Part shown: positions 3,362 to 20,425 of the stretch, piece by piece
Position numbering within the stretch: the first letter of the stretch is position 1
How the letters are laid out: every line of letters starts with the position of its first letter
NCBI RefSeq assembly: GCF_007004735.1
Contig: NZ_SSNL01000005.1
Location: forward strand, 124,001 to 188,000
DNA length: 64,000 nt
Source of the DNA: Salinigranum halophilum
GTDB lineage: Archaea > Halobacteriota > Halobacteria > Halobacteriales > Haloferacaceae
Direction of reading: 5' to 3'
The notes under the pieces: generated by a model
The model's input: the letters and a program-made list of their open reading frames with translations, nothing else
The model's database searches: none
Told to the model about the DNA's origin: nothing
Translations under genes and position numbers: made by a program

Positions 3362-3892
3362 ATGAACACCTCCGACGACGAACGTGGCCCGTCCCCCTCA
3401 GACTTCTCGGAAGACCTCGGTGAGCGACTCGAGAACGCTCCGGCGGACGAACGAGTGTACCGGACCGCACTCGAACTCTACACGCCGACCCGTGTCGTGG
3501 AGGTTGCAGAGCGAGCAGACTGCTCGAAGAATTCGGCCCGGAGACACCTGCGACGACTTGCAGACATCGGCGTGTTGACGCGGGTGACAGAAAACCCAGA
3601 GACCTTCGAGCGGAACGAGTCGTACTTCGAGTGGCGGCGACTCAATCGACTCTCGGAACTGGACGACGACGAATACCGGGACCGGCTCGGTGAACTGCTC
3701 TCCGAAGACGAAGCGTATCGTGAGACGTACGATGTCGAGACACCGGACGAGATTGACCCACTAGAGTACGGTGAGTACGGCGACGTGGAGACCGTCTGGC
3801 TGGACCTGAACAACTGGGCTGCGGTTCGGAGAGAGATCCGTGACCTCCGGCGCTCCCGACAAGATAACCCCGTCGGCGAAGGAGTCGCCTGA
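3362..3892 (+). CDS. Winged-helix DNA-binding protein (putative antitoxin/regulator)
   Basis: A 176-residue acidic protein. Residues about 30-80 form a winged helix-turn-helix: 'YTPTRVVEVAERADCSKNSARRHLRRLADIGVLTRV' in pieces, with recognition helix 'KNSARRHLRRL'. The C-terminal half is helical and charged ('LSELDDDEYRDRLGELLSEDE', 'AAVRREIRDLRRSRQD'), suggesting dimerization. It resembles haloarchaeal regulators annotated DUF7342 (from memory). ATG 3362 is preferred over an upstream in-frame start because it sits at the right distance from the TATA box. The next gene begins 2 bases after the stop, so the two form an operon. Arrangement and size suggest it neutralises or represses the downstream TumE-like product; this is inference. 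Confidence 0.7.
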   Translation: MNTSDDERGPSPSDFSEDLGERLENAPADERVYRTALELYTPTRVVEVAERADCSKNSARRHLRRLADIGVLTRVTENPETFERNESYFEWRRLNRLSELDDDEYRDRLGELLSEDEAYRETYDVETPDEIDPLEYGEYGDVETVWLDLNNWAAVRREIRDLRRSRQDNPVGEGVA

Positions 3893-15924: not shown

Positions 15925-16449
15925 TCAATTGCCCTCTCGTTGCTGTTGTAGTGTTGCTTTTGCGCGTGCGACGTATGAGTTTGCAGACCAACTTCGGGCG
16001 TCGCTCATCTTCTCGAGAAACTGCTCCGCAGAATCGGGAGAGAGCACGTCGTTCCGCACGAGGGCAGTGAGTAGGATTGGCGTCGTCACGAGACGAGTGT
16101 CAACGAGTGATGCATGGATCACTGCGAGCCGGTTGAACTCGTCGCAGAGGAGTTGAACCGCGTTCACTTCGTTCGCCAACGTGACTGCCGCGTTCTCGCC
16201 ATCGTCCAGTGGAAACGTTTCGTCCAATTCGACAGGACGGGTATCGAACGCGTTCTTACGGTCAAGCACGGCTTGTGCTGCCTCTCCAGAGGCATCGTCG
16301 TAAGATGCTGTTTCAGCCAATTCTTCGAGAACGTGCTTGGGAAGCAGGAGTTTGTGTGACTCGAGAAGTATGTCGAGTGGGTTTGTCGTGGCGTCCGCAG
16401 CGGTTCCCAGACTAACGAGAGCGGAAGCATCAGCGACGATGCGCATCAT
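15925..16449 (-). CDS. PIN-domain toxin (VapC-like)
   Basis: A 174-residue protein. The PIN signature begins at once: 'RIVADASALVSLGTA' with the first acidic residue. 'KHVLEELAETASYDD' supplies the second, 'DDGENAAVTLANEV' the third, and 'VQLLCDEFNRLAVI' the fourth. PIN proteins are Mg-dependent RNases; in VapBC pairs they cut tRNA or rRNA. It follows the ribbon-helix-helix gene without a gap (antitoxin stop at 16450, toxin ATG at 16447-16449), the usual antitoxin-first order. It is longer than typical VapC (about 130 residues) because of a helical C-terminal extension. Confidence 0.75.
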   Translation of the reverse strand: MMRIVADASALVSLGTAADATTNPLDILLESHKLLLPKHVLEELAETASYDDASGEAAQAVLDRKNAFDTRPVELDETFPLDDGENAAVTLANEVNAVQLLCDEFNRLAVIHASLVDTRLVTTPILLTALVRNDVLSPDSAEQFLEKMSDARSWSANSYVARAKATLQQQREGN

Positions 16450-16770
16450 CTATGTGTCGGCTAACTCTTCTGCCACGTCGTCAACGAATGCCTCGCTCAA
16501 CTGCTGTTTCAGGAGACGAAAATTTGCGGCCTCCTCGTGACCGACGAGAGATTGTAACTCCTCAAAGGTAATGGCGTCGTCGTAGTACGCTTCTGCGACC
16601 TCCTGCTTTACTTCGTCAGAGTGCGCTGCGTCCCGAAGATACTCACGGAGAGCTGAGATGAGAATGTCCGTCCGGTCTGTCTCGAACACCGCTGCGAGAG
16701 TGTCAGCCCGATCCACCAGCCCTCTCGGTGCTCGGAACTGCACTCGCTTCTTCTCCGATTCGGAACTCAT
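16450..16770 (-). CDS. Ribbon-helix-helix antitoxin (VapB-like)
   Basis: A 106-residue protein from ATG 16770; longer in-frame starts add a sequence with no protein character. Residues 8-50 ('KKRVQFRAPRGLVDRADTLA', 'TDILISALREYL') form an RHH DNA-binding domain. The second half ('YYDDAITFEELQSLVG', 'EAANFRLLKQQL') resembles UPF0175/VapB-type regions that cap the toxin. It should repress its own operon together with the PIN protein. The A/T-rich 'ttgtaaaat' region at 16790-16800 upstream fits a promoter. Confidence 0.75.
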   Translation of the reverse strand: MSSESEKKRVQFRAPRGLVDRADTLAAVFETDRTDILISALREYLRDAAHSDEVKQEVAEAYYDDAITFEELQSLVGHEEAANFRLLKQQLSEAFVDDVAEELADT

Positions 16771-16954: not shown

Positions 16955-17281
16955 TCAGAACGGCGGGTCGTAGTCCTCGTACTCTTCCATCTCCTCCATC
17001 TCGTCGATCTTCGACGGCATCACCGCGGCACGGGGGCCACCTGCGCGGACGACCTCCACCTCGGAGAGTTCGTCGATGCTCTCGGGGAGACGGCGCTCGA
17101 TGGCTTTCATCGTCATCGGGGCGATGCCACAGCCGGAGCACGCACCGCCGATGGCGACGGTCACCCGTCCAGCCTCCTCGTCGACGTCGCGAATCTCGAA
17201 GTTGCCACCGTGCTGTTGGATCTGTGGGACGTTGTTGCTGAGGTAGTTCCGCGTTCGTCGTTCGAGGCCTTGAGCGCTCAT
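16955..17281 (-). CDS. NifU-like (NFU-domain) Fe-S cluster scaffold
   Basis: A 108-residue protein from ATG 17281. It has the NFU domain with 'GACSGCGIAPMTMK', the C-x-x-C pair that bridges a [4Fe-4S] cluster between two subunits. It ends in an acidic Met/Glu tail. Role: carrying Fe-S clusters to apoproteins in the cytosol. ATG 17281 is preferred because a TATA box lies about 25 bases upstream, giving a leaderless message. A DtxR-type palindrome sits right behind that box, so iron control is likely. Confidence 0.85.
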   Translation of the reverse strand: MSAQGLERRTRNYLSNNVPQIQQHGGNFEIRDVDEEAGRVTVAIGGACSGCGIAPMTMKAIERRLPESIDELSEVEVVRAGGPRAAVMPSKIDEMEEMEEYEDYDPPF

Positions 17282-17301
17282 TACAGGTTCACCTATGGCC
17301 C

Positions 17302-17314
17302 AATATATCATAAA
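17302..17314 (-). promoter_or_regulatory. TATA box of the NifU-like gene
   Basis: On the minus strand 'tttatgatatatt'; its centre is about 26 bases before ATG 17281, as in leaderless haloarchaeal promoters. Confidence 0.6.
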
Positions 17315-17322
17315 TCTGTTTG

Positions 17323-17338
17323 TTTAGGTGGTCCTAAA
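17323..17338. promoter_or_regulatory. DtxR-type operator 1
   Basis: TTTAGG-TGGT-CCTAAA, a perfect 6-base inverted repeat. It lies directly upstream of the TATA box of the NifU-like gene, overlapping the expected BRE. The half-sites resemble TTAGG/CCTAA of DtxR/IdeR boxes. Confidence 0.65.
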
Positions 17339-17610
17339 ATCAGCGTCTACAGGCCACGAGACGACATATCTATATATCTATATCTAACTCGTACCTGATT
17401 TCTGGTATTTTTTCGTACGGCCTAAAACTCCGACGCGACCGGGTGCCGTGAGACGGCACGCGTGCGTGGGCGTCACCCCCATCCAGCGCGCAGGCCGCCC
17501 GAGTCCCGACGCACAGTGACACCGAACGACCACAGCCGTCGGTCCGCGGTCGTCAGGGCCGGCCCGAACAGCACCACCTCGCTCCGCCGCTCGAATCGCC
17601 TCGGCCGTCG
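17339..17610. other. Spacer between divergent iron-type promoters
   Basis: No gene seen. It includes a lone half-site 'cctaaaac' near 17420 and an A/T-rich run at 17366-17412. Confidence 0.45.
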
Positions 17611-17630
17611 TTTTTAGGAGTGCCTAAAAA
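17611..17630. promoter_or_regulatory. DtxR-type operator 2
   Basis: TTTTTAGG-AGTG-CCTAAAAA, 8-base arms. It lies just upstream of the TATA-like box at 17641-17648. Confidence 0.65.
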
Positions 17631-17640
17631 ATCGGTGGAA

Positions 17641-17648
17641 CTATATTG
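17641..17648 (+). promoter_or_regulatory. TATA-like box between operators 2 and 3
   Basis: 'CTATATTG'. Its centre is about 26 bases before ATG 17670, so the predicted transcript begins at or next to that ATG. Confidence 0.55.
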
Positions 17649-17665
17649 TTTTAGGTGCGCCTAAA
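17649..17665. promoter_or_regulatory. DtxR-type operator 3
   Basis: TTTTAGG-TGCG-CCTAAA, 6-base perfect arms. It lies between the TATA-like box and the predicted transcript start, where a bound repressor would block transcription. Centre-to-centre distance to operator 2 is about 37 bases. Confidence 0.65.
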
Positions 17666-17669
17666 GTGC

Positions 17670-17933
17670 ATGAGCCCGAGGACACGCGAGCACCGTGTCG
17701 CCACGTCGACGACGCTCGTCATCGGCTGTGCCGACCGGGACGTCGCGGGCAGCGCACGGATAGACGAGTCGCCCCCGCCAACAGCGCGACCTGTTGGGGC
17801 CGTCGACGGCGCGGTGGCTCCACGTCGCGGTCGAGTCCCCGGCCGTCCACCCGTCGTCGATGGCGACCGCCATCGCCCCGACGGCCGGGCCTCGACCTGC
17901 CGAGCGTTCGGTACCCCGGAGGAGTTGCGGTAA
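17670..17933 (+). CDS. Small open frame coupled to the DUF7260-like gene (uncertain)
   Basis: An 87-codon frame beginning 'MSPRTREHRVATSTTLVIGC' at the position where the leaderless transcript should start. Its TAA stop (17931-17933) is one base before the next ATG (17935), which would suit translational coupling. Against it: the sequence is rich in Pro, Arg and Gly without a recognisable fold, and high-GC DNA makes chance frames common. It may be a leader peptide or just leader sequence. Confidence 0.35.
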   Translation: MSPRTREHRVATSTTLVIGCADRDVAGSARIDESPPPTARPVGAVDGAVAPRRGRVPGRPPVVDGDRHRPDGRASTCRAFGTPEELR

Positions 17934-17934
17934 G

Positions 17935-18723
17935 ATGGCGCTCGAAACACACGTCCATCAGGCTCGGACGCGCGCGCAGGCGGAGTGGGAAGCGGTCGAC
18001 GCGAAGGTCGACGCGTACGACGCGTTCATCGGTCGAGTGACGAACCTCCCCACGGCCCCCGCGCCATCGGCCACACCGAGAGCCACGGCCGCTGCGGGGA
18101 CGCTCGCTCGGGGTGGGTCCGCGACCGACGACCGGTGTCGCAGGGTCCGGAAGGCGTTCGCCGAGACGGTGCGGCCCCACAGCATCGACGACGTGGACGG
18201 CCCCGAATCCGTCCTCGAGACCGTACAGTCAGAGTTCTCGGATTCGGTCGCGGCCGCGCTTGCACCGACGACCGAGACGTCGTTCACTCCCGAGCTCAAA
18301 CGGGTTGTCGTCTCGGTCGCCAGCACCCGCCGGACGGAGACCAAAGTCCTCCGCCGGGCGCTCGCTCGGGAGGACGACCGACTCGAGCGTGCCGGCGAGA
18401 CGGTGGACGGCGTCGTCGAGTGGATCACCCGTGCGAACGAGACGCCGTTGAGCGACCTCGGGTTCGCGGCGCTTCGGCGACGCCACGAGTCGCTCGCCCA
18501 GCACCGCGAGCGGTGTGAGCAACTCGCCCGTCGCCGTCAGGAGTTCGTCCGGGGGACGACGAACGAGGGCGTCGACGCCGGCATCCGCCACCAGCGTCTC
18601 GTCTCGTACCTCTACGAGGACTTCCCCGTCGCGTTCCCCGTCTTGGCGACGGTCGCCCGGCTCGACACGGTGTGTGCAACGTGCCAGCGGGCGGTTCGAC
18701 AGCATCTGGTGCGGAGGGTCTGA
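17935..18723 (+). CDS. DUF7260-like helical protein, candidate iron-regulon member
   Basis: A 262-residue, mostly helical, charged protein from ATG 17935 behind 'cggaggag'. The middle region ('CRRVRKAFAETVRPHS', 'FTPELKRVVVSVASTRR', 'LRRALAREDDRLERA') matches the pattern of haloarchaeal proteins I recall as DUF7260, whose role is unknown. The C-terminus contains 'LDTVCATCQRAVRQHL', a C-x-x-C motif. No membrane segment or enzyme motif is visible. Two DtxR-type palindromes bracket its promoter, so it is likely repressed or induced with metal status. Confidence 0.6.
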   Translation: MALETHVHQARTRAQAEWEAVDAKVDAYDAFIGRVTNLPTAPAPSATPRATAAAGTLARGGSATDDRCRRVRKAFAETVRPHSIDDVDGPESVLETVQSEFSDSVAAALAPTTETSFTPELKRVVVSVASTRRTETKVLRRALAREDDRLERAGETVDGVVEWITRANETPLSDLGFAALRRRHESLAQHRERCEQLARRRQEFVRGTTNEGVDAGIRHQRLVSYLYEDFPVAFPVLATVARLDTVCATCQRAVRQHLVRRV

Positions 18724-18948: not shown

Positions 18949-19365
18949 ATGAGTGGGGCACCGCAGTACCTCCTCGTGTTATACCTCGTCGAGCAGACCG
19001 ACTCCGACCCGGTGGCACCGGGCGTCGTCGCGGACGCGCTCGACCGGTCTCCCGCCGCGACGACCGAGATGCTCCAGCGACTCGCAGCGCGCGGACTGGT
19101 CACGCACGAACCGTACGAGGGAGCGACGCTGACGCCCGACGGACGCGAGGACGCCGAAGAGCTATACGAGACGTACGTCACGCTGTCGCGGTTCTTCGAC
19201 GAGGTGCTCGGACTCGACGACGCCGAGGAGGAGGCGATGCGACTCGCGGGGAACGTCAGTCCGGTCGTCGCCGACCGCCTGGCGACGAGCCTCCTCGAGG
19301 ACCGCGACACCGCCCCCGAAGACACGGTGACCCGACCGTCGTTTCTCCACGTGAACGAGCGCTGA
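18949..19365 (+). CDS. DtxR-fold transcription regulator lacking metal ligands
   Basis: A 138-residue protein from ATG 18949; GTG 18922 is an alternative. Residues 1-65 are a DtxR/SirR-type winged helix: 'YLLVLYLVEQTDSDPVAPGV', 'TTEMLQRLAARGLV', 'HEPYEGATLTPDGR'. The dimerization domain follows ('LSRFFDEVLGLDDAEEEAMR', 'LAGNVSPVVADRL'). By alignment from memory, the His/Glu/Cys ligands of DtxR (the His of 'KHR', the Cys and Glu-His of 'CRWEH') are replaced, the last pair reading Gly-Asn. The fold is kept but metal sensing as in DtxR is doubtful. The nearby palindromes could be its targets or those of another Idr-type protein. Confidence 0.75.
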   Translation: MSGAPQYLLVLYLVEQTDSDPVAPGVVADALDRSPAATTEMLQRLAARGLVTHEPYEGATLTPDGREDAEELYETYVTLSRFFDEVLGLDDAEEEAMRLAGNVSPVVADRLATSLLEDRDTAPEDTVTRPSFLHVNER

Positions 19366-19468
19366 ACCCGTCCGCTCCGCGACCGCTGTGGCCACTCGGT
19401 GCGAGGCGCGACAGCGGCGTCGACGGCTGGCCGGAACGGTTATGTCGAGACACCCCAACGGACATGAA

Positions 19469-20425
19469 ATGCGAACGACACTCACGGTACTGGTTACCGC
19501 ACTCGTCCTCCTGAGCGGCTGTTCCGGTATGGGCGGTACGACCACCGACGCGCCGTCGACGGCCGCGCCGACAGCCACGGAGGCCCCGACGGCGACGCCG
19601 ACACCGATGGCAGAGACGACGGAGGCGTCGGACGAACAGACGGCGCACATGGGCTGTCAGCCCGGCGAGGTGAACAAGAACGGCACCTGCACGGTCGCGG
19701 TGTCCGGACAGAACGCCGAGATATTCAGCGCCGAGAACCTCTCGGCCATCACGGCCGAGGAGACGACCATCGGCGGGACGCCCGGCTACCTCGCGCGGCC
19801 GGCCGACAACGGCACCTACCCCGCGGTCGTGATGGTTCACGAGTGGTGGGGACTCAACGAGAACATCAAGCACATGGCGGACATCCTCGCGGGCCAGGGC
19901 TACGTCGTCTTCGCGGTCGACCTCTACGACGGCGAGGTGGCCATGAACTCCTCGGAGGCGGGCCGGCTGTCGGGGCAGGTCAGAGAGAACCCCGACGTGG
20001 CCGTCTCGAAGATGAGCGCCGCCGTCTCCGGACTCCGAGACCGGGCGGACACGACGAAGCAGGTCGCGAGTCTCGGCTGGTGCTTCGGCGGGGGCCAGAG
20101 CCTCCAGTTGAGCCTCAGTGAGGCCGAGTTGAACGCGACGGTCATCTACTACGGGACGCTCGCGACGGACGAGGAGACGCTCCAGCGCATCGACGGGCCC
20201 GTGCTGGGCATCTTCGGCTCCGAGGACCAGGTCGTCCCCGTCGAGGACGTCCGGGCGTTCAACCAGACGCTTGACGACCTCGGCGTCGAACACGAGGTGT
20301 ACGTCTACGAGGGTGCGAACCACGCCTTCGCCAACCCGAGCGGACAGAGCTTCGAACCCGAGGCGACACGCGACGCGTGGTCGAAGACGCTCGACTTCCT
20401 CGACAGGACGCTGAAGCAGGAGTAG
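19469..20425 (+). CDS. Dienelactone-hydrolase-family lipoprotein
   Basis: A 318-residue protein. ATG 19469 gives a signal peptide 'MRTTLTVLVTALVLLSGC' with a lipobox, then a Thr/Ala/Pro-rich linker to about residue 60. The catalytic domain is an alpha/beta hydrolase of the dienelactone hydrolase type: 'VVMVHEWWGLNENIK', nucleophile Cys in 'SLGWCFGGGQS', Asp in 'GSEDQVVPVED', His in 'EGANHAFANPS'. It should act on an ester or lactone outside the membrane. A start at ATG 19442 is possible. Downstream, the convergent gene ends 16 bases later. Confidence 0.8.
   Translation: MRTTLTVLVTALVLLSGCSGMGGTTTDAPSTAAPTATEAPTATPTPMAETTEASDEQTAHMGCQPGEVNKNGTCTVAVSGQNAEIFSAENLSAITAEETTIGGTPGYLARPADNGTYPAVVMVHEWWGLNENIKHMADILAGQGYVVFAVDLYDGEVAMNSSEAGRLSGQVRENPDVAVSKMSAAVSGLRDRADTTKQVASLGWCFGGGQSLQLSLSEAELNATVIYYGTLATDEETLQRIDGPVLGIFGSEDQVVPVEDVRAFNQTLDDLGVEHEVYVYEGANHAFANPSGQSFEPEATRDAWSKTLDFLDRTLKQE

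Follow-up and report, generated by a model that had tools for sequence, protein, structure and literature searches.

The window analyzed here, a 64,000-nucleotide stretch of Salinigranum halophilum contig NZ_SSNL01000005.1, contains two divergent genes. On the minus strand lies a gene for a NifU-like (Nfu-type, CxxC) Fe-S protein of 108 aa (16955..17281, ATG at 17281), and on the plus strand one for a DUF7260 protein of 262 aa (17935..18723). Both identities, proposed in an initial annotation from the sequence, are borne out by Pfam. The NifU-like protein matches PF01106 over the curated cut-off (E 2.3e-15, 56.9 bits) and carries its CxxC motif as GACSGCG, while the DUF7260 protein matches PF23921 over the full profile, positions 1-242 of 242, also over the curated cut-off (E 1.6e-75, 254 bits). 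The DUF7260 gene has its own GGAGGAG at 17918-17924, which ends 10 nt before its ATG. The gene that follows was overlooked by the initial annotation and encodes a DtxR-family regulator of 138 aa without canonical metal ligands (18949..19365, plus strand; DtxR winged-helix and dimerization domains PF01325 and PF02742, both over cut-off), hereafter type C. Downstream of it, at 19388-20422, a dienelactone-hydrolase domain (PF01738) stands behind a lipoprotein-like N-terminus. At 15925-16770 are two adjoining minus-strand genes that resemble by eye a ribbon-helix-helix/PIN-type pair, with no Pfam match at 0.001.

A scan of the window for TTTAGG-N4-CCTAAA returned three exact copies: box 1 at 17323-17338 (TTTAGGTGGTCCTAAA), 41 nt before the NifU-like ATG; box 2 at 17613-17628 (TTTAGGAGTGCCTAAA); and box 3 at 17650-17665 (TTTAGGTGCGCCTAAA), 37 bp from box 2. 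All three fall inside 343 bp, in agreement with the earlier claim of three copies in about 350 bases. A further box-like site at 17411-17426 has 2 mismatches, and a functional role for it is doubtful. Within the 4.2-Mb genome, the full 16-mer occurs exactly 10 times, versus 0 for a reversed-pattern control; the shorter core TTAGGN4CCTAA is found 10 times versus 2, and 10 of 10 copies extend to the 16-mer. Nearly all of the 10 exact copies lie immediately upstream of genes, and 3 of them are the window sites. AT-rich promoter patches can yield recurring short palindromes, and the boxes could in principle have arisen by chance repetition or reflect the structure of such patches. However, because the genome control is empty and box positions are conserved to the base across genera, chance origin is effectively refuted, the class-wide controls described below pointing the same way, and we regard this explanation as vanishingly improbable.

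Exact boxes are present in 289 of the 292 Halobacteria genomes searched, mostly 3 to 20 per genome, whereas the control gives zero in most. Because of this breadth, the window sites are, as predicted operators, members of a class-wide haloarchaeal regulon. The box core is identical to the 14-bp TTAGGNNNNCCTAA, the site of one IdeR/DtxR dimer, and this core is present in three exact copies in the window. TTAGGNNNNCCTAA is bound by Actinobacterial IdeR as a single dimer and has been proposed as a redefined consensus (PMC8464063). Together with the placement of sites before metal-uptake genes, the shared core upholds the original description of the palindromes as DtxR-type, that is, as predicted DtxR/IdeR operators.

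The initial annotation had also called for a genome-wide search for the motif before iron genes. Inspection of the exact sites and of several with one mismatch shows metal-uptake genes prominently, alongside some genes whose link is unclear. Exact boxes precede an ABC substrate-binding protein gene of the iron type (C3:34846), a DUF7551/7552 gene (C5:34179) and a DUF5059-plastocyanin gene, which has two (C4:619546 and 619583) plus another at 619671 farther upstream. One-mismatch boxes precede a PF01497-type binding protein gene divergent from ZnuA (C4:611426 and 611462), a Zip transporter gene (C1:425650) and a small DUF7331-like gene adjoining dpsA (C1:296109). Several boxed genes have no evident iron link, which counts against the interpretation developed below: an RGP-like glycosyltransferase-family gene adjoining an iron ABC gene (C3:36076) and a diphthamide-synthase-like gene, before which a short frame carries the box (C1:393580).

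Three of these neighborhoods hold further observations. The RGP-like gene (PF03214; L027:4910-6064 on C3) has its own exact box beside the iron ABC genes. The box at C1:393580 is followed after 1 nt by an open frame of 46 aa (L026:4441-4596), which is not conserved, being found in 2 of 97 genomes, its own included. Many type-C loci encode a conserved protein of ~55 aa ending in ...VFxESxNxDGWIxSDxxVDV, with a box ~8 nt before its ATG (as at 3544 in locus L155); its gene is usually flanked by the type-C DtxR gene and dpsA, and the copy in this genome (L030:4110) has a weak DUF7331 match.

The TATA-like element of the plus-strand transcript (ACTATATTGT, 17640..17649) lies between boxes 2 and 3, as the initial annotation had described, and a similar linker, ACTATGTTGT, is present in relatives. 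Paired boxes are spaced 36 bp apart in 32 of 41 distinct pairs and 37 bp in 6 of 41, the latter being the spacing in the window, and the 20-21-bp linker between them contains a TATA-like element in relatives. An ATG 3 or 4 nt after the second box is common in relatives; in the window, box 3 ends 4 nt before an ATG at 17670, the predicted transcript start region. Transcript starts here are deduced from sequence, and loci of near relatives are non-independent. Since the boxes bracket the TATA element and box 3 ends so close to the ATG, the geometry fits repression, with two predicted dimers flanking TATA and reaching the predicted start.

The ATG at 17670 opens a leader frame (17670..17933, plus strand) that is probably not a gene. 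It shows no coding periodicity (GC 0.77/0.68/0.76 at the three positions) and no family match, which together argue against a genuine small protein. An in-frame comparison with DUF7551 gives a weak match (4.2 bits, E about 1) that none of 1000 codon shuffles equals. The frame may be the decayed end of a DUF7551 gene, of the kind that precedes DUF7260 in relatives, a reading that is suggestive only. Decay from a lipoprotein N-terminus is unconvincing for this frame (3.6 bits, with 2 of 50 shuffles equal or better). Separately, in some relatives (L159, L160) short frames behind box pairs do resemble remnants of a lipoprotein N-terminus, which would fit the loss of a binding-protein gene with retention of its promoter.

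Box 1 has a different placement. As originally noted, it lies behind the TATA of the Fe-S gene, upstream of ATTTATGATATATTGG (17315-17300, minus strand), and most NifU relatives have a TTTATGATAT-like element at the corresponding position. The NifU box ends 40-41 nt before the ATG, with this element between, in nearly all of about 20 relatives, so that the box corresponds to the upstream member of a box pair without the downstream member. An archaeal regulator bound there might activate or might hinder TFB, and because both activation and repression are possible from a site upstream of TATA, the direction of NifU regulation could be either. The earlier statement that the positions are exactly those needed for repression thus fits the operon promoter but not the NifU-like gene, whose box lies upstream of TATA/BRE, where activation is equally possible.

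The DUF7260 protein is predicted to be mostly helical (mean pLDDT 85), and a fold search with the model matched no solved fold. Cys194 is near-invariant, and a C-terminal Cys250-Gln-Arg is mostly conserved; a role as a helper or metal-binding protein is something we infer only. In relatives, DUF5059, DUF7551, DUF7260 and DtxR make up a single run, and Halorubrum ezzemoulense carries DUF5059, DUF7551 and DUF7260 side by side. In the present genome these three families occupy three separate loci, and each locus is boxed. That families found in one run in relatives are separately boxed here is the best argument that DUF7260 belongs to the iron regulon. The earlier proposal to place this protein in the iron response is therefore supported by context, namely the box and the gene neighborhood in other genomes.

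The AlphaFold model of type C (mean pLDDT 81) matches DR2539, MntR and DtxR with probability 1.00, and the ligands of the primary and ancillary metal sites are lost: among 95 distinct orthologues, Glu83, His98, Glu105 and His106 are each kept in 0 and His79 in 1. The replacements are themselves strongly conserved, with Tyr at 79 in 93 of 95, E/D at 98 in 92 and Met at 102 in 76. Type C might accordingly sense metal through new ligands (Glu 98, Tyr 79, Met 102), as a re-tuned rather than metal-blind sensor. Against this, the Glu105 position holds Ala/Val, the His106 position Gly and the Glu83 position mostly Ser, and no His or Cys cluster is left, so that we consider a re-tuned sensor improbable.

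Type C occurs in about 105 of the 292 genomes (counted at E <= 1e-28). Of 80 type-C loci, 76 have a box with at most 1 mismatch close by and 69 have one upstream; adjacent genes encode DpsA at 55 loci, binding proteins at 23, NifU at 14 and DUF7551 at 13, and DUF7260 is directly upstream at 21, these counts including near relatives and hence being non-independent. Examples are Haloferax mediterranei pHME505 (binding protein, type C, NifU), Haladaptatus halobius (DUF7551, DUF7260, a 61-aa frame and type C, close to DpsA and an iron ABC transporter) and Halostagnicola larsenii (DUF7260, type C). As the gene adjoins its own boxes, and as the modeled protein appears to keep the DtxR fold with the recognition-helix Ser37 and Glu43 positions conserved, type C might simply repress its own operon and NifU in an autoregulatory loop without a wider regulon. 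This is very unlikely: about 187 of the 292 genomes are without type C, yet nearly all are boxed, and a protein without the metal site could not alone report iron by the known mechanism. A role for type C as general box reader is likewise rejected, since it is absent from about two thirds of genomes and boxes occur in nearly all. In three genera, type-C genomes carry about 4 to 6 extra boxes. Because this is roughly what the type-C island itself adds, type C looks like a client that may also modify the regulon, and not like its founder.

To identify the probable reader, type C was compared with the two other DtxR proteins of the genome that exceed the Pfam cut-off with close family scores. Type A (C1:163539-164252) is longer, with a C-terminal extension that we read as a putative FeoA-type domain, and alone among the three has a complete metal site; its ligands are intact in 30 of 30 orthologues, and it is present in 96 of 97 genomes. 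Type B (C1:108423-108854), encoded beside a ferritin-like gene, has a degenerate canonical metal site and a C-terminal CxxC plus Cys. On the strength of its metal site, type A is the likely box reader. Two points count against it: three genomes with type A homologues have zero exact boxes, and at the IdeR Gln43 position a Glu is common to B and C but not A. The shared Glu makes type B a serious rival, in which B would mainly read the boxes and might respond to an Fe-S cluster or thiol state instead of free Fe(II). Like the boxes, B occurs in nearly every genome (284 of 292), and its recognition helix (SPA...E) is closer to that of C than to that of A. However, B has lost most of the canonical metal ligands, boxes persist in genomes without a strong B match, some of which still hold 2-3, and the metal sensors familiar from textbooks are structured DtxR proteins of the FeoA type. 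On balance, we think it rather unlikely that B is the main reader.

We therefore favor type A as the reader and propose, with good confidence, that the boxes are operators of a metal-activated DtxR/IdeR-type dimer in a class-wide iron regulon. This builds directly on the sites, their enrichment, their conserved geometry, the gene neighborhood and the ligand loss in type C; iron dependence, the identity of the reader, repression and metal-free feedback by type C are what we infer from them. In iron-sufficient cells, two dimers would flank TATA by occupying boxes 2 and 3, adjacent to the start point, and would silence the operon of DUF7260 and the type C DtxR gene, while a dimer bound to box 1, immediately upstream of the TATA element of the divergent NifU-like gene, would adjust that gene with either sign. 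When iron falls, the operators would empty and the operon would be made, and type C, thus induced at low iron, would feed back on the same boxes without metal. A more specific version, in which this metal-blind paralogue, made only at low iron, occupies the TTTAGG boxes or pairs with a metal-sensing DtxR, with DUF7260 and DUF7551 as partners, is put forward tentatively, as a possibility somewhat short of even.

If true, a metal-blind paralogue would give the iron switch a built-in metal-independent feedback arm, and the conservation of a DtxR-fold regulator without its metal site raises the question of what such a protein senses. Three unnamed families (DUF7260, DUF7551/7552 and DUF5059-plastocyanin) would be tied to haloarchaeal iron supply, and the promoters would follow testable rules: a lone upstream box, or a pair of boxes that surrounds TATA at a spacing of 36-37 bp.

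Multiple DtxR proteins have been described in organisms of the same class, with Idr1, Idr2 and SirR in Halobacterium and Idr, SirR and TroR in Haloferax volcanii (cited in PMC11349517), and the H. volcanii work cited there names DtxR proteins as iron regulators. These networks resemble the present one in their DtxR-family control of iron genes, and parts of the regulon picture may already be described in the primary haloarchaeal literature. A metal-blind DtxR raises the question of how far such multi-DtxR networks depend on metal-blind members. The best sequence and fold match of type C is DR2539 (8pvt, 8pw0) of Deinococcus radiodurans, a DtxR-family repressor that depends on manganese; its metal site is complete, whereas that of type C is lost. 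As for the operators, those of Actinobacterial IdeR/DtxR (TTAGGTTAGSCTAACCTAA; one-dimer core TTAGGNNNNCCTAA, PMC8464063) share the 14-bp core with the haloarchaeal box, and the Actinobacterial sites lie over or beside the start of repressed genes (PMC10317159), as is predicted for the haloarchaeon. Unlike them, the haloarchaeal boxes are single-dimer palindromes with an extra T/A at the ends and often come in pairs that enclose an archaeal TATA element at a spacing of 36-37 bp.
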